Below are positions 19,868-40,968 of a stretch of DNA of 51,410 nt, piece by piece. Origin of the DNA: Candidatus Brockarchaeota archaeon (GTDB lineage: Archaea; Thermoproteota; EX4484-205; JAAOZP01); NCBI GenBank assembly GCA_017601395.1, contig JAFNIQ010000007.1, forward strand, positions 1 to 51,410. Direction: 5' to 3'. Both the position numbers and the translations under genes were made by a program. How positions within the stretch are numbered: the stretch's first letter is position 1; each line of letters opens with the position of its first letter. The notes below the pieces were generated by a model, which was not told where the DNA came from, ran no database searches, and saw nothing but the letters and a program-made list of their open reading frames with translations.

Positions 19868-20130
19868 CAAATGGCACATCCACAGTTTCATATAAATCTC
19901 TAAAAAAGTTCGGGAATAAAATTAGGAGTTGAGACAATCTGCTTAGCCTTAAACCCATGTACACGCCTGTGGTAATTGACTGGCACGCGAAGTGCAACCC
20001 ACTGTTCCTATGTTTAGCGAATAATCGCGGTATCGTGAGATCCTCTGTGAGCCATAGACGTCACCTCTCAACTCCCGGAAACGGATGTTCACCTGGACTT
20101 AAGCTGAAGTAATTTGACCGGCAATGTAAG

Positions 20131-20166
20131 CGGGCCCGCCGCGATTCGAACGCAGAATCTTTGGCT
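20131..20166 (-). repeat. Degenerate 3'-half tRNA-Arg remnant (T-arm plus acceptor 3' strand), putative attachment-site duplicate
   Basis: Minus strand AGCCAAAGATTCTGCGTTCGAATCGCGGCGGGCCCG matches the 3' half of the tRNA at 22957-23049; no 5' half or anticodon loop. Confidence 0.8.
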
Positions 20167-20181: not shown

Positions 20182-20850
20182 CTAAGAAAGAAGTGTTGCT
20201 AGCCTAACATAAACTTTATCCTTATAGGTGCTGATGCTCTCAATCTCCAGCCTTTCGATATCTATAAATAATTTATAACCGACTATGTGTTTTGCAAGCC
20301 CCTCATAGATTAAATTTTTGCTTAAAGAGTGAATAAAATTCTTGACGCGTTGAAAATCAAAATCAACAACATCCGTTATTATCTTATTAGCATAGTCGGA
20401 ATCAAGCTCACATTTCAAGGACATTTCTGGAACTACTATAATTTCCCTTCCTCCTGCCTTAGTTTTTACCCTTGAATCCATACCAAATTTCTCAGTAAGA
20501 ATTTGCCTATTTATTTTATATTCTTCTTCTACGTGCTCCAAATCATCTCGATATGATTCTTTCTCTGAATTCATATGGTCAGAGAGAAGGATTGTAACAA
20601 AGTCCACCTTAACATCACCCTCTAGATTCAAAGCTGCGTTTAACAGGCGTTCAGCTAAATCTCCTACCCTCTTAGGATTACTCGAATAAGCTGTTAAATA
20701 AAAGATAGTCCCCTCATCTCTTTCCCGGCCTGTAATCCCTATGACACATTCTTTTATTGTTTCTCTCCATCTTTTAGAAACATATTTCTCGCTATTTACT
20801 CTAACCGCCTCTAAGTCGTCCCCCCACATCCAGACTGTAGCGTGGCTCAT
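20182..20850 (-). CDS. Cassette ORF3, protein of no recognised family (ORF 20182-20874; ATG at 20850 or TTG at 20874)
   Basis: Directly downstream of the LAGLIDADG gene; C-terminal region conserved in the decayed copy (39428-39604). Confidence 0.65.
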   Translation of the reverse strand: MSHATVWMWGDDLEAVRVNSEKYVSKRWRETIKECVIGITGRERDEGTIFYLTAYSSNPKRVGDLAERLLNAALNLEGDVKVDFVTILLSDHMNSEKESYRDDLEHVEEEYKINRQILTEKFGMDSRVKTKAGGREIIVVPEMSLKCELDSDYANKIITDVVDFDFQRVKNFIHSLSKNLIYEGLAKHIVGYKLFIDIERLEIESISTYKDKVYVRLATLLS

Positions 20851-20874
20851 CTTATCCTCTGATGATCGTTTCAA

Positions 20875-21813
20875 CTAGCCCTCTCTTCCCTCCTCCTTTT
20901 CTTCTTCACTTTTGTATTTTAACCTTATACTTTCCAGTCTTTTTGCACGACCCGGGTGATAAGTACCTATTTCCTCTGCAAACCGAACGTATTCGTCTTC
21001 AGGAATAGAGAAAACATAGTAATTGTGTAGCGGAGGTTCTTTTTTAGAGACGTGAATCGGGTTAGGATGAAACCCTAGGAGTTTGAATGCTTCCCACAGT
21101 TCTTTTATCCCCTCTTCACAAGTTGACGATATTTTAATGGAGAAGCCTTCTTCACTTTTGCTTATATTCCCGTCTCCAGAAAAGAAACCTCTTAAATATG
21201 CTCTCAATCCATCTTTATCAAGATGTTTAAACGGAACGTGGAATTTAAAAGCCTTCGGCTTAATACCTAGGTCCAGAAGATCAAAATACACTCCTCTATC
21301 ATATGTTCTTGCTTCAAAATACTCCCTTCCATCCCTCTTCCTCTTATGGTAAACATGAGGTTCTATACCATAAACTTCCTTAAACAGATCATTATAGCGT
21401 TCAATGAGCTCCCTATGTTTCGAGGTGAAATGAACCTCAAAGTCAGGGTGCTCTCTAGTAGAATAAAGACCGCCGTCTGAAGCTATGAGACCACAGATTT
21501 CAGCTTTCCTAGAAGTCGTTATTTCTCTAAGCCCTTCTTCTGATACTTCTAACAGCGTCCCACGGCACAGTGGAAAAAGGAATCTATCCTCCTCAATTAT
21601 TGCTTTTGAGAATTTGCCGATGAGTTCACCTTTTTTAAGCAGCTCATATTCCTCCCTTTCCGTCTTTCGTATTTCATACTCTCCGAAAACTCTAATAGTT
21701 TTAGCTTCGTATTTTTCACACTTCTCACCATGAATTGTGGGTTCTTTCTCATATACCGATTCTCCTTGGCCAAATCTTCTTTCATATTGCCTTATGGCTG
21801 AGCCTCCGCCCAT
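20875..21813 (-). CDS. LAGLIDADG-type homing endonuclease-like protein
   Basis: Two LAGLIDADG-like motifs, ICGLIASDGGLY and LRAYLRGFFSGDGNI, about 100 aa apart with the expected intervening domain. Confidence 0.88.
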   Translation of the reverse strand: MGGGSAIRQYERRFGQGESVYEKEPTIHGEKCEKYEAKTIRVFGEYEIRKTEREEYELLKKGELIGKFSKAIIEEDRFLFPLCRGTLLEVSEEGLREITTSRKAEICGLIASDGGLYSTREHPDFEVHFTSKHRELIERYNDLFKEVYGIEPHVYHKRKRDGREYFEARTYDRGVYFDLLDLGIKPKAFKFHVPFKHLDKDGLRAYLRGFFSGDGNISKSEEGFSIKISSTCEEGIKELWEAFKLLGFHPNPIHVSKKEPPLHNYYVFSIPEDEYVRFAEEIGTYHPGRAKRLESIRLKYKSEEEKEEGREG

Positions 21814-21819
21814 TGATTC

Positions 21820-22884
21820 TCACTTGCTTAAGTCTAACAAGTTATGGACAATCAGAATCTTCATGCATGCTTCCTTCCCGTCTATCCATAAATCAAGCAA
21901 CTCCTGTGGCATTAACCCATTACAAGCCTTGCAATTACATTCATCAAACCTTATTTCAGGATCATTAAGCGGATATGGAAATCCGTTCTTAAAATAATTT
22001 CCATGCTTAGCTTCTATGAACCAAGAGAGATTACTGTAGCTTATTCCTTTATACTTCTGCTTTCGACCAACACCATAAACGAGTAGTTCAAAATAAATAC
22101 TACTATTCTTCAAGATCTTGAGAGCGTATGGAAGAAAATATCCTAAACCTCCTTCTTCAAAAAGTTCTCTTGCCGGCATTGCGAATGAAACATATCCCAT
22201 TTCAACCTGTTTCTTAATGGCCCAATCCATTTGTAGAAGGTTAGCACCCTTGACCAAGCCTATTACAGGGATGTTTAGCTTAAGAAAATCTTTTGCAAAA
22301 GATACAAGACGTATAGTTTGAGACCAAGATAAGAAAAGGGGGTCATCGGTATATGTGTAGTTATCTGGAATCATAGTAGCATCAGGCCTCAAATCCCTAA
22401 TCAGCCTGAAGTAATCCTCTAGCCTAAGCTTATCGATAAACTCATCCGGCATCACCGTAGATAAAACAATCTTCCCATTAAAACCTAGGAAATCATGAAG
22501 TCCCTTACTTGATGCTTTAGACAACATATTCTCATTTATGAGTAATTGCCAAAGGGGAACAAAGATCATAGGTGTTTGAAGACCTTCCCTCCAAAACCAG
22601 GACCTTCGATCTAAAATATCGATTTCAGGAACAAATTTAGGAAAACCTATCCTGGTTACTTGGTTCCTACTTGCTAAAGGAATGGATATAGGAGGTGGTC
22701 GGCCTTCACCTCCACTAGGACAATAGGGTCTTAACCGGCAGAAAGATTTAGGGTAAGTTAACCCCAAATGATGACTTCCACGAAGGCAACGAGCCACAAG
22801 GCATACGCCAATGATCGTGCAACGAGGACAGGGATTCTTAAAGTAGGGGCAGGACTTACATTCAACTCCACATCCACTTTTCAA
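21820..22884 (-). CDS. tRNA/DNA-guanine transglycosylase-like protein with Cys-rich N-terminus (DpdA-like or TGT-paralogue candidate; TTG start)
   Basis: C-terminal CNCKAC-x25-HN matches the TGT zinc signature C-x-C-x2-C-x25-H; GLHDFLGFNGKIV resembles archaeal TGT GLHEFLGFDGPI; N-terminal C-x3-C-x2-C-x6-C-x2-C-x5-C-x4-C. Confidence 0.75.
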   Translation of the reverse strand: MKSGCGVECKSCPYFKNPCPRCTIIGVCLVARCLRGSHHLGLTYPKSFCRLRPYCPSGGEGRPPPISIPLASRNQVTRIGFPKFVPEIDILDRRSWFWREGLQTPMIFVPLWQLLINENMLSKASSKGLHDFLGFNGKIVLSTVMPDEFIDKLRLEDYFRLIRDLRPDATMIPDNYTYTDDPLFLSWSQTIRLVSFAKDFLKLNIPVIGLVKGANLLQMDWAIKKQVEMGYVSFAMPARELFEEGGLGYFLPYALKILKNSSIYFELLVYGVGRKQKYKGISYSNLSWFIEAKHGNYFKNGFPYPLNDPEIRFDECNCKACNGLMPQELLDLWIDGKEACMKILIVHNLLDLSK

Positions 22885-22910: not shown

Positions 22911-22956
22911 TTTAATAACACTTTCTGACAGCTCGTAACAACGTTTTACGGGGTAG

Positions 22957-23049
22957 CGGGCCCGCCGCGATTCGAACGCGGGATCTTCGGCTCCGGAGGC
23001 CTGCGTGGAATGATCCTCGACGCCTTTATCCTGGCTTGGCCACGGGCCC
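22957..23049 (-). tRNA. tRNA-Arg(CCG) with an apparent 17-nt non-canonical intron in the 5' anticodon stem (23001-23017)
   Basis: Acceptor GGGCCCG/CGGGCCC, T-arm CCGCG-TTCGAAT-CGCGG; removing AGGATCATTCCACGCAG gives stem-loop TCGGC-CTCCGGA-GCCGA and a 76-nt mature tRNA; CCA not encoded. Confidence 0.88.
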
Positions 23050-36553: not shown

Positions 36554-37408
36554 TTGCCTTTAAGCATTTTTTATGACCAGATAAGGTTTGAAGAGAAGGA
36601 GCTTTTCAAAGCCGCTGAAAACCTTTCTATACCATTCAAAAAGCTGAACGTCGACGAGTACTCATTCACACTCGGCAGGAGGGTGCCTGAGCTCCAGGAT
36701 GTTGACGCGGCCCTCTTGAGATGCGTATCCTACTTTAAGTCACTCCATTTCTCAAGCTACCTTGAAGGGGTTGGAATAACGTCGGTAAGCTCCTTCAAAA
36801 CACTGCAGATAGCTGGCAACAAGCTCTTCACAACTGTTGAGCTCATGAAGAACAACGTGAAAACCCCTTTCACGGTAGTCTCCTTCTCCTACCAGTCTGC
36901 CCTAGACTCCTTCAGCAAGACAGGCTACCCGGCGGTGTTGAAACCCGTCATAGGAAGCTGGGGAAGACTAATCTCCCTTATAAAGGACAGGTATACTGCT
37001 GAAGCAGTGCTTGAAGACCGTTTATACATGTTTCCACTCTACCAGGTGTTCTACGTGCAGGAGTATGTTGAGAAGCCTGGCCGAGATATTAGGGCCACGG
37101 TAATAGGGGACGAGGTTGTTTCCGCAATATACAGGGTTTCCCCACCAGACCAGTGGAAGACAAACATAGCTATAGGCGGAAAAAGCGAGAAGGCAGAGGT
37201 CACCCACGAGCTTTCCGAAGTAGTGCTTAAAGCATCCAGAGCGGTAGGTGGAGAAATAGTAGGGATCGACGTGATGGAAAGCCCTAAAGAAGGCTATGTT
37301 GTTAACGAGGTTAATCCTACGCCTGAGTTCAGGGGGAGCATGGAGGCCACCGGCATTAACATTCCCGAGAAGATTCTCAAGTACCTTGTGTCCAAAATGA
37401 GAAAATGA
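36554..37408 (+). CDS. lysX: LysX/ArgX: alpha-aminoadipate (or glutamate)-LysW ligase, RimK-like ATP-grasp
   Basis: AGNKLFTTVELMKNNVKTPFT, VLKPVIGSWGRLI, YVEKPGRDIRATVIGDEVV, VNEVNPTPEFRGS; follows lysW. Confidence 0.93.
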   Translation: MPLSIFYDQIRFEEKELFKAAENLSIPFKKLNVDEYSFTLGRRVPELQDVDAALLRCVSYFKSLHFSSYLEGVGITSVSSFKTLQIAGNKLFTTVELMKNNVKTPFTVVSFSYQSALDSFSKTGYPAVLKPVIGSWGRLISLIKDRYTAEAVLEDRLYMFPLYQVFYVQEYVEKPGRDIRATVIGDEVVSAIYRVSPPDQWKTNIAIGGKSEKAEVTHELSEVVLKASRAVGGEIVGIDVMESPKEGYVVNEVNPTPEFRGSMEATGINIPEKILKYLVSKMRK

Positions 37409-37486
37409 GCCTGTCACAGAATTACAGTTCATCTTTTAAAGCAAGACGAGCTTATTTCAGAAGGAATATGATGAAGAGGAGGGCAC

Positions 37487-38540
37487 CGTGCGGCTCGACT
37501 GTAAAAACTGTTTCTACTTCGCCAAGATCTTTGTCATGGTTGCTCAGCCGGTTGTCTCGCACTTTCATGTAAAAGAGGCATATGTTATAGTGGAATAACT
37601 TCTCCAAGGATCTTCTGTAGGCTTAAGACTTACTGCCCGTTTAGAACCAAGGACAGGACTCCAGTTCAGCTTCCCGCATCTGGATAGAAAACCCATGACT
37701 ATGGTTTGCTTTCAAAAGTTTGTTTCGAGAATTGACATGACCGATCCCAGATCTTGGTTCTGGAAGCACGGTATTGAATTCCCAGCGATTTTCGTTTCTT
37801 TGGGAGAAATTCTACTTAACAAAAAAAGTATTGAATGAGGCTCTAAAGGGGTTACACGATTACTTGGGATTCAATGGAAGAATCTTTCTATCCTTGGTTA
37901 TGCCCGACGAACTCATCGATAAGCTATCCACCAAGGATTACCTTAAGCTAATTGGAGATCTTAGGCCCGATGCTACCATGATCCCGGATAAATTATACTT
38001 ACAGTGACGACCCCTTGTTCTATCTTGGTCGCAAACGACTTCCTTAAACTGGATACACCTCTAACAGGTTTGGTTAAGGGTGCTAATGCTCTGCAAATAG
38101 ATTTTGTTTTAGGAAGCAGATAGAGATGGGTTATGTTTCATTTGCCATACCCGCGAGGGAGCTTTTTAGAGAAGGTCAATTAAGCCCCTCTTTTCCAAAC
38201 AATCCCGTTGAAAACGCCCTATGGAGTCTAAAGAAGACTTAGGACCAATTTTGAGCTAACCATATATGGAGTTGGTGGGAAGCTGAAATATGAACAGTTA
38301 AGTTAAACTAATCTTTCATGGTTCCTAGACGCAAAGCACTGACTCTACTTTAGAAACGGGATACCATTCATGCTTAACGATCCAGAGGTTAGGTTTGAAG
38401 AATGCGATCGTGAAGTCTGTAAGGGAATGAGCCTTAGGAGATTATTGATCTTATGCTCAACGATAAGGAAGCAGGTTTTAGGATACTATTCCTCCACAAC
38501 CTGTTAGATATGCAGAGGGCCTTCCAAAAGAGGGGTTGAA
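37487..38540 (+). pseudogene. TGT-like protein remnant
   Basis: DCKNCFYF, DPRSWFWKHGIEFPAIFVSL, GLHDYLGFNGRIFLSLVMPDELIDKLSTKDYLKLIGDLRPDATMIPD, DFLKLDTPLTGLVKGAN, EMGYVSFAIPARELF, KEAGFRILFLHNLLDMQ spread over several frames. Confidence 0.85.
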
Positions 38541-38549
38541 AAGAAGGTA

Positions 38550-39436
38550 ATGGGTGGTGGAACTAGAGTAGGACAATGGAAAGAGAGGTTTTTCGAGAGT
38601 GAGATAGAGTTGAGGGAGCATTTAAAGAGGGAGCCTAAATCTGCAGAGAATATGGAAATGAGGTCTCCCACGTTATTGCAAGCTTTGGAGAATATGAAGT
38701 ACGTGGAACAGAGGAAGGATATGAGTTGCTCAAAGGAGAAGAAGTTATAGGAATTTAAGAATCCATAACTCAGGGTGATAAGATCCTCTTTGAGTTAAGC
38801 CATGCAGCATATCTAGAGGCATCCGAGAGAGATACTAGGGAAATACTTGCTCCTGAAAAAAAGCGGAGCTGTGTGGCTTAATAGCATCGGATGGTGGTCT
38901 CTATATGAGTGAAAAGTACCACCATCACCGTATATATCTCACCTCAGCAGATGGAGAAGTGGCTAAGCATTATGAAGAACTATTTGAGAAAACTTATCAT
39001 AAGAGACCACATAGATATAAATATGAACCGTCGTCATTCCCTCATTACTCTGAAGAAGTAGAGGATAGGGGGCATATTTTTGACCTGTGGGACCTTGGAA
39101 TTAAAGGATCACCTTATGAGTTCCATGCGCCAAAAGAACACTTGGACCTAAAGGGCGCGAGGACTTATCTTAGGGGCTTTTTCACTGGAGATGATGGTGT
39201 TGCTATGTGGTATGAGAAGCCCCAGGATAGGATACGTTTCTTCATACGCTTTAACTCCAAGTATGGAGAGGGATTAGAGGAGATAAGAAGTCTACTTATA
39301 GATTTGGACTTTCATCTCTTGAAATTCACGAGTATCATAGGGAGGATGGAACCTATTACTTTTTTGGAATCCGTGAAGAAGAACACTTAAAATTCATAGA
39401 GGCGATTTACGACCTTGGCTTCGGGCCTTGAAGGAT
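38550..39436 (+). pseudogene. LAGLIDADG homing endonuclease remnant with frameshifts
   Basis: MGGGTRVGQWKERF start; CGLIASDGGLY near 38872; HLDLKGARTYLRGFFTGDDGVAM; end continues in another frame as DGTYYFFGIREEEHLKFIEAIYDLGFGP-stop. Confidence 0.85.
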
Positions 39437-39604
39437 TTCGTCAAATCTTTGGGTTGTGAAATTATAAAGAGAGGTATTGCTGAAGAAGTAGCTGGTTACG
39501 AGTTGCGGGGAAGTGTTGAGGAGCTTAAAATCAATGATGTTGACGTGGGATACGATGGGGTTTACGTGTACTTGGGGTTGAATCAAGCTAAGTGTTCATT
39601 CTAA
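39428..39604 (+). pseudogene. ORF3 C-terminal remnant (59 codons)
   Basis: LKDFVKSLGCEIIKRGIAEEVAGYELRGSVEELKINDVDVGYDGVYVYLGLNQ aligns with VKNFIHSLSKNLIYEGLAKHIVGYKLFIDIERLEIESISTYKDKVYVRLATLL of ORF3. Confidence 0.75.
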
Positions 39605-39891
39605 ATGTCCTCTTATCCATATACACTGTTTACATTTCGTGAAGATAGGGGTGACTAATGTTTGAATACAGTCAGCAAAAGCTTCTGCCTACTCCTCTGG
39701 AACCCTGTTTCAGCGCGCGCTACGCGGATGGCTTGCGTGTCTAATCCGAAAAGGTTGTGAAAAATATAGTAAGCCATCGGTTGAGTCTAGCATGCGTCTG
39801 GCTCTAGTTAAACCCGGAGAAGCCTATAGCACGCTGGAGAAAATATGTCCTACTGTGCAGCAGAGGAGAAAAAGATTCTTAAACACCTAGT

Positions 39892-40968
39892 TTGGAGGAT
39901 TATGAGGTAAGGTTGGTTAAAGTAGCGGTGTACGGGGCAAGCGGGTACGTCGGAGGAGAGCTGCTTAGAATACTTCTATCGCACAGTAGTGTGGAAATCA
40001 CCGCGGCCACTTCTAAGAGGTTCAGCGGCATGCCTGTTCACAAGGTTCATCCAAACCTTAGGAAGGTTTGCCAGATGAGCTTCGTAGAGCCTAAGGTTGA
40101 GAACGTGGCTAATGCGGAAGTTGTCTTCACAGCACTTCCACATGGCCAGTCTACACACGTGGTTAAAACGCTTCTCGACAGGGGTTTGAAGGTGATAGAC
40201 TTGGGAGCGGATTTCAGGCTTAAAGACCCTTCTGCCTACGAGAAATGGTACGGGTTTAAACATCCCTACCCTGAGCTTCTGGAGAAGGCTGTCTACGGCC
40301 TGCCGGAGCTTCACAGAGACGAGATAAGGACTGCTAGTCTGATAGCAGTACCGGGCTGCATGGCTTCGGCGAGCATACTGGCACTAGTGCCCCCTGTTAA
40401 GAACGGTCTGGTAGACAGGAGCCAGATATTCATAGATGCTAAAATAGGCTCGTCGGGAGCCGGCTCCTCGCCAACCTTAGAAGGATACCATCCGGAGAGG
40501 TATAACGTGGTTAGGCCATATAAGCCGGCTGGGCACAGGCATGTCGCCGAGATAGTTCAAGAAGTTTCGAACGCTGCTGGCGGAGGAATAGTCATAGGCT
40601 TCTCGCCGCATTCTGTAAACATTGTGAGGGGGATACTTGTAACTGTTCACGCACGTCCATCCGGAAGGCTCCCGTCCTTTCCAGACCTGTGGAGGTGCTA
40701 CAGGCAGGCTTACGACAAGGAGCCGTTTATAAGGCTCGTAAGGGATCCGACGATGGTGCACGGCCTGCCTGATCCAAAGTACCTGATGGGCTCGAACTTC
40801 GCCGACATAGGTTTCGAGATAGACGCTGACTCTAACAGGGTAATCCTGTTCGCAGCCATAGACAACCTGGTTAAGGGGGCTGCTGGAAACGCTGTCCAGT
40901 GCTTCAACATTATCTTCGGTTTCGATGAGAAGGAGGGTTTAACCTTCCCAGGTCTACACCCGGCGTGA
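39892..40968 (+). CDS. lysY: LysY/ArgC: LysW-aminoadipyl (glutamyl)-phosphate reductase (start possibly 39913)
   Basis: VKVAVYGASGYVGGELLRIL, VPGCMASASILAL, KIGSSGAGSSPT. Confidence 0.93.
   Translation: MEDYEVRLVKVAVYGASGYVGGELLRILLSHSSVEITAATSKRFSGMPVHKVHPNLRKVCQMSFVEPKVENVANAEVVFTALPHGQSTHVVKTLLDRGLKVIDLGADFRLKDPSAYEKWYGFKHPYPELLEKAVYGLPELHRDEIRTASLIAVPGCMASASILALVPPVKNGLVDRSQIFIDAKIGSSGAGSSPTLEGYHPERYNVVRPYKPAGHRHVAEIVQEVSNAAGGGIVIGFSPHSVNIVRGILVTVHARPSGRLPSFPDLWRCYRQAYDKEPFIRLVRDPTMVHGLPDPKYLMGSNFADIGFEIDADSNRVILFAAIDNLVKGAAGNAVQCFNIIFGFDEKEGLTFPGLHPA

Follow-up and report, generated by a model that had tools for sequence, protein, structure and literature searches.

What kind of element is the broken three-gene cassette between the lysX-type and argC-type genes, and how is it related to the intact cassette 15 kb away? 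The window (the whole stretch of 51,410 nucleotides analysed here) comes from a Brockarchaeota archaeon (genome G000), and the named relatives are mostly Brockarchaeota MAGs. An earlier note on this DNA had described fragments of a TGT-like gene, a LAGLIDADG endonuclease gene and a third gene (ORF3), ordered as in the intact copy (copy 1) and placed on the opposite strand. The parts of this broken copy (copy 2) and its flanks are as follows.

36554-37408, plus strand: left flank of copy 2, LysX/RimK-type ATP-grasp gene (Pfam; syntenic in G001 and G003-G007)
37468-38538, plus strand: TGT-like pseudogene of copy 2, with frameshifts and stops (tblastn to copy 1; G005 remnant)
38551-39405, plus strand: LAGLIDADG endonuclease pseudogene of copy 2 (tblastn, 41-46% to copy 1)
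39396-39406, no strand: deletion junction of copy 2, most of ORF3 gone, about 600 bp (G005 comparison; 616-bp alignment gap)
39407-39604, plus strand: C-terminal remnant of ORF3 of copy 2 (profile and tblastn matches at 39419-39592)
39892-40968, plus strand: right flank of copy 2, argC-type semialdehyde dehydrogenase gene (Pfam)

Searches with the copy 1 proteins (tblastn) place all three fragments on the plus strand (TGT-like 37500-38530, LAGLIDADG 38550-39315, ORF3 39419-39592), and the tblastn and profile matches extend the homology of the two copies to all three genes. The TGT-like pseudogene is 38-59% identical to copy 1 (tblastn, several frames) and contains two TGA, two TAG and six TAA stops. 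The earlier note had counted 36 identities in a 47-residue TGT-like segment, which is exact, and had judged the endonuclease parts to be more diverged, which agrees with about 41-46% identity in the matched LAGLIDADG stretches vs. up to 59% for the TGT-like gene. The nearest relative of copy 2 is an almost intact cassette in G003 (C23b, L063 11038-13788; 82.6% nucleotide identity). Relative to this cassette, copy 2 has 20 indels, of which 16 shift the reading frame, and its LAGLIDADG gene has 10 stop-creating changes in frame (pN/pS 0.38), so the decay that had been proposed is real. The internal deletion thought to have taken most of ORF3 measures 616 bp; the orthologous locus in G005 (L108) still retains the deleted segment, and the alignments overlap by about 10 bp at the junction. 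Region 37481-39605 is a dead member of a mobile cassette family.

Orthologous sites in related genomes record the history of this insertion. In the outgroups G007 and G001 the lysX-argC site is empty, with the two genes adjacent across a gap of about 60 bp. G005 carries the same insertion (89% nucleotide identity, the value also found for its orthologous TGT-like remnant) with ORF3 still there. In G004, the TGT-like gene and most of the LAGLIDADG gene are gone, and a 220-residue ORF3 match remains in an open frame. Only the first 150 bp or so of the insertion are left in G006. Because the breakage differs in each lineage, a single ancestral insertion followed by separate decay routes in G000, G005, G004 and G006 is indicated, and an assembly error in copy 2 is unlikely. 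Because the site is empty in G007 and G001, the insertion took place within the genus. A lost tRNA gene beside copy 2 was considered and rejected, as neither occupied nor empty sites contain a tRNA or T-loop motif in any of the genomes. A non-coding sequence of about 170 bp that separates copy 2 from argC (window 39700-39880) is kept in G003, G004 and G005 and is absent from G006, G007 and G001.

The intact copy 1 and the tRNA sequences at its ends are all on the minus strand.

20129-20166, minus strand: second tRNA-Arg 3' half, bordering copy 1 on the side away from the tRNA gene (direct repeat of 38 bp, paired with 22955-22992)
20182-20874, minus strand: ORF3 of copy 1, 230 aa, intact, no known fold (AlphaFold2, pLDDT 92)
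20875-21813, minus strand: LAGLIDADG endonuclease of copy 1, 312 aa, intact (Pfam LAGLIDADG_3, 8e-20)
21820-22884, minus strand: TGT-like protein of copy 1, 354 aa, intact (profile match to archaeosine TGT 1iq8, E 9e-9)
22956-23049, minus strand: tRNA-Arg(CCG) gene, which contains a short insertion; copy 1 follows directly downstream (ARAGORN)

The earlier note had left open separate acquisitions or an old duplication. Identical gene order at a distance of 15 kb is what would be seen if copy 2 had arisen from copy 1 by local duplication and later divergence, but the trees make this extremely improbable. Copy 1 is a member of a tRNA-Arg lineage that G003 also has, and its TGT-like gene differs from the G003 orthologue by only about 9%; copy 2 falls in another clade, with G003 C23b and the lysX-argC remnants of G005 and G004, with strong support in both the TGT and the LAGLIDADG trees. 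The copy 2 insertion is also common to G004-G006, whose tRNA-Arg sites lack copy 1. Separate acquisition is thus the part of the proposal that stands. The orthologous tRNA-Arg(CCG) gene adjoins lysS in G001, G003, G004 and G007. Its short insertion near the anticodon is present in G000, G005 and G006 and absent from G001, G003, G004 and G007, and its T-stem alleles CCGCG and CTGGG alternate between species.

The window's genome contains about 12 cassettes or remnants, and cassettes range from 1.7 to 2.9 kb across the family. The earlier note had described two of them; the other ten or so, the neighbouring tRNA genes and the repeats derived from tRNA are additions to it. Contig ends fall inside several of them, and C45/C22, C100/C93 and C93/C111 are halves of single cassettes, as judged by shared flanks or trees. 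A tRNA gene lies directly beside 11 of the 12, including copy 1 (ARAGORN, introns allowed); the chance of this is about 2e-21, for a margin of 200 bp and an assumed archaeal number of about 46 tRNA genes (30 counted). The same partners recur in sister genomes: Gly(TCC) in four, Ala in three, and Glu(TTC), Glu(CTC), Met, Leu, Thr and Arg in two or more each. Two observations count against a model of insertion directed to tRNA 3' ends: the Gly lineage is located 5' of its tRNA, and neither the clade of copy 2 nor that of C10/C109 is at tRNA genes. Among 401 genomes of the phylum, ORF3 matches were confined to the same order, with none outside Brockarchaeota. No relatives occur in viral contigs or in a viral fold library, and a viral origin was rejected. 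Rfam gave no match in the window. The literature search returned no paper joining LAGLIDADG and tRNA-guanine transglycosylase, and the published description of Brockarchaeota does not mention such elements.

Some tRNA genes may carry more than one layer of cassette sequence. In two Gly cassettes (L012 6554-6610 and L065 7155-7225) a piece of the LAGLIDADG 3' end is repeated past ORF3, possibly left over from a previous cassette at that tRNA. Thr(TGT) cassettes or remnants (L064 2671-6471, L079 4936-5984, L086 111-1016) lie between two convergent tRNA genes. At the Thr(TGT) gene of G003, an intact cassette adjoins an older ORF3 remnant, which suggests that this site was invaded again.

At no fewer than seven loci, the tRNA 3' half is repeated in the same orientation at the far end of the cassette. 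The cleanest case is tRNA-Met in G007, where the repeat matches at 51/51 bp; others match at 51/52 (Ala, G005) and 48/48 (Leu, G000) or span 33-34 bp (Glu, G005 and G000) and 38-40 bp (Arg, the window and G003). Depending on the locus, a repeat starts anywhere between the anticodon arm and the T-stem and ends between the tRNA end and about +29; the Arg and Met repeats start in the anticodon arm and reach or pass the tRNA end. All repeats have in common a core of about 25 bp, the T-arm and the acceptor 3' strand, which is largely common to isoacceptors. The displaced Arg copy of G003 runs into host sequence that is found 3' of the tRNA in the empty G005 site, as expected if integration was a crossover inside this half of the tRNA. 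Occupied loci have a complete tRNA 3' half, in many cases with the same sequence as in empty orthologues. Cassettes lie outside the tRNA gene and are not in a self-splicing or BHB intron or in an intein; the tRNA introns are short insertions only. The Arg, Thr(CGT) and Glu(TTC) sites had suggested recoding of the T-arm ("cleave and rescue"), and this was rejected by a census of 141 tRNA entries: occupied Ala(GGC), Glu(CTC) and Gly genes share their T-arm with empty ones, and cassette-free tRNAs (Val, Ala TGC) vary equally in the T-arm.

Cassette lineages, as read from the trees, follow the amino-acid identity of the tRNA and not the host: the TGT, LAGLIDADG and ORF3 trees require a minimum of 9, 6 and 7 label changes for isotype vs. 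12, 12 and 14 for genome. A Gly unit, including its tRNA, is 92.6% identical at the nucleotide level between G003 and G008; similarity stops at both ends, with no homology in the flanks. G003 and G008 are members of different families, and between the window and G008 argC is only 55% identical. A Leu cassette is found at tRNA-Leu(CAG) in G000 and at tRNA-Leu(TAA) in G005, where the tRNA 5' halves differ, the match starts in the variable arm and dS is 0.04 for LAGLIDADG and ORF3. Ala cassettes at GGC and CGC genes are 90.4% identical, the match starting at the tRNA. Orthologous sites also show presence/absence alleles between related genomes. Judged by these sequence comparisons, the cassettes are mobile, moving between isoacceptor genes and crossing host families by horizontal transfer. 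With dN/dS at 0.09-0.38, purifying selection acts on each of the three genes. The earlier note had taken two copies in one window as the best evidence for a functional, mobile trio. Better evidence comes from the location of 11 of 12 cassettes at tRNA genes, the 3'-end repeats, the empty sites, the transfer between host families and the moves between isoacceptors. Mobility is upheld, but the trio is not indivisible, as LAGLIDADG plus ORF3 occur without the TGT-like gene inside a pristine repeat and ORF3 alone is often intact.

The LAGLIDADG protein can be placed in the LAGLIDADG endonuclease family by its two motifs with acidic residues, and cleavage is predicted. Among 16 proteins, Asp113 is nearly invariant and Asp214 is invariant, so that both motif aspartates are conserved; the nearest solved relative is I-DmoI (E 5e-10). 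The TGT-like protein has the TGT fold (Foldseek to 1iq8, E 3.5e-12). Like archaeosine TGT, it has a CxCxxC...H zinc site (Cys316, 318 and 321 and His347, all invariant). In the HMM alignment to 1iq8 it differs in lacking the DSGSFQ motif that contains D95 and in having Ser284 at the position of D249; D95 and D249 are the catalytic aspartates of the P. horikoshii enzyme, and neither is conserved. It also has an additional Cys-rich N-terminus. A 643-aa fusion of a TGT-like domain and a metallophosphoesterase (L017 3592-5523, G000:C30) is 26-29% identical to the cassette TGT, and such relatives are found in several genomes; one of them lies within an open frame of 3129 aa that adjoins the tRNA-Thr cassette of G003 (C48:38802-39854). 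The ORF3 model (AlphaFold2, pLDDT 92) has no PDB or viral fold match at E<=0.001.

Cassettes without a TGT-like gene show which parts can be missing. The smallest unit, at tRNA-Met in G007, consists of LAGLIDADG and ORF3 inside the perfect 51-bp repeat; at an Ala gene of G003, LAGLIDADG and ORF3 are open and a TGT remnant adjoins. ORF3 is intact with LAGLIDADG broken or missing at 10 loci and the reverse occurs at one (sign test p 0.012, from a small count of related loci with no correction for their common ancestry), which does no more than suggest that ORF3 is retained longest after decay. None of the cassettes encodes an integrase or recombinase: they contain three ORFs only, none of which matches a recombinase family.

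Integration by a tyrosine recombinase characteristically leaves a repeat of the tRNA 3' half, and such an enzyme could be provided in trans. The cassettes could accordingly be satellite-type elements that integrate via tRNA 3' halves by an in-trans tyrosine recombinase, in the style of pNOB8/SSV, with LAGLIDADG as cargo or regulator. The repeats are tRNA 3' halves, those of Arg and Met have the extent known from archaeal integrative elements, and Sugahara 2012 read a 1.87-kb repeated element at Caldiarchaeum tRNA-Thr in this way (PMC3293823). Against this, no cassette has a match to an integrase or recombinase family, the repeat ends differ between loci, and the smallest unit keeps LAGLIDADG and ORF3; we consider this explanation unlikely, at something like one chance in five.

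We favor instead, at a probability of about 0.68, mobile cassettes that are driven by the LAGLIDADG protein without an integrase of their own, are dedicated to tRNA 3' ends, and decay after insertion. The LAGLIDADG protein would cut the T-arm/acceptor segment of the cognate tRNA gene, and repair via the tRNA 3' repeat would then leave the cassette next to a whole tRNA gene. For the TGT-like protein, which some units can do without, the probable role is that of a zinc-bearing accessory with altered catalysis that binds tRNA or tDNA. After insertion, copies would decay, and copy 2 at its lysX-argC site is an example. In usual homing, insertion destroys the endonuclease site and so provides immunity. 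If the site lay wholly inside the repeat, the occupied allele would keep it, and this immunity would not be explained. Since insertion leaves the tRNA 3' half whole, either the real site straddles an end of the repeat, or the occupied allele is protected in some other way. ORF3 is probably a factor for self-protection or host protection, a role proposed because it is kept longest. A more specific version of the LAGLIDADG-driven reading is tentative, and we would sooner doubt it than adopt it: an integrase-free element class in which LAGLIDADG is specialised on the tRNA T-arm/acceptor with one lineage per amino acid, ORF3 is an immunity or antidote sparing the occupied tRNA gene and kept after the endonuclease dies, and an altered TGT relative was recruited as a tRNA/tDNA recognition partner.

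Low dN/dS, the TGT fold and isotype-specific lineages might also be expected of domesticated, tRNA-specific maintenance modules that modify or regulate the neighbouring tRNA, with isotype clustering by vertical inheritance; the Gly arrangement is conserved in four genomes. This is quite improbable given presence/absence at orthologous tRNAs, frequent decay without replacement, cross-family transfer, movement between isoacceptors, loss of the TGT catalytic aspartates, and units without TGT.

Free-standing homing endonuclease genes need no residence in an intron or intein. The cassettes resemble I-DmoI-type and free-standing homing endonucleases in their two LAGLIDADG motifs with conserved Asp, and homing endonuclease genes generally in presence/absence polymorphism, invasion-decay cycles and horizontal transfer. 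They differ in lying beside an intact tRNA with a duplicated 3' half and not in an intron or intein, in usually including ORF3 and in many cases a TGT-like gene, and in that the putative tRNA-borne site is not visibly destroyed. With pNOB8/SSV-type tRNA integrative elements they share the partial-tRNA direct repeat, the reconstituted tRNA and several copies per genome, but they have no integrase, only two or three genes, and lineages for seven amino-acid types. SegB is a GIY-YIG type endonuclease. It is located in a tRNA cluster in T4-type phage (PMC13096335) and is likewise a homing endonuclease linked to tRNA genes, but without a tRNA 3' repeat cassette. In the mitochondrial cob and atp6 genes of the fungus Endoconidiophora, endonuclease ORFs lie between the gene and a duplicated 3' piece (PMC6279837). 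The similarity is that an endonuclease ORF adjoins the host gene or separates it from a repeat of its 3' segment; the differences are that organelle protein genes are involved and that there are no partner genes. The Caldiarchaeum element shares the tRNA-Thr target; unlike the cassettes it repeats a tRNA 5' fragment, and its protein of about 270 aa was classed only by SVM (PMC3293823). Compared by description, it may be related to the cassettes.

Free-standing LAGLIDADG genes of other archaeal families are also found near tRNA genes: three of seven lie within about 100 bp of tRNA-Thr(GGT), tRNA-Met and tRNA-Pro.

L286 1305-2508, L289 290-1005, L290 865-2321: free-standing LAGLIDADG loci near tRNA genes in three families

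At L290, a second tRNA-like T-arm and 3' end lies 2.1 kb away.

Genes for tRNA are common integration sites in archaea, and the users of these sites known to us carry integrases. Here, in a single genome, endonuclease cassettes without an integrase occupy about one quarter of the tRNA genes, and each tRNA type has its own lineage. They amount to a naturally occurring set of LAGLIDADG proteins whose targets differ and can be predicted, all within the tRNA gene segment that is most conserved, and they offer a way to test how an element attacks an essential gene yet leaves that gene working. The finding possibly also bears on how archaeal tRNA genes become fragmented.
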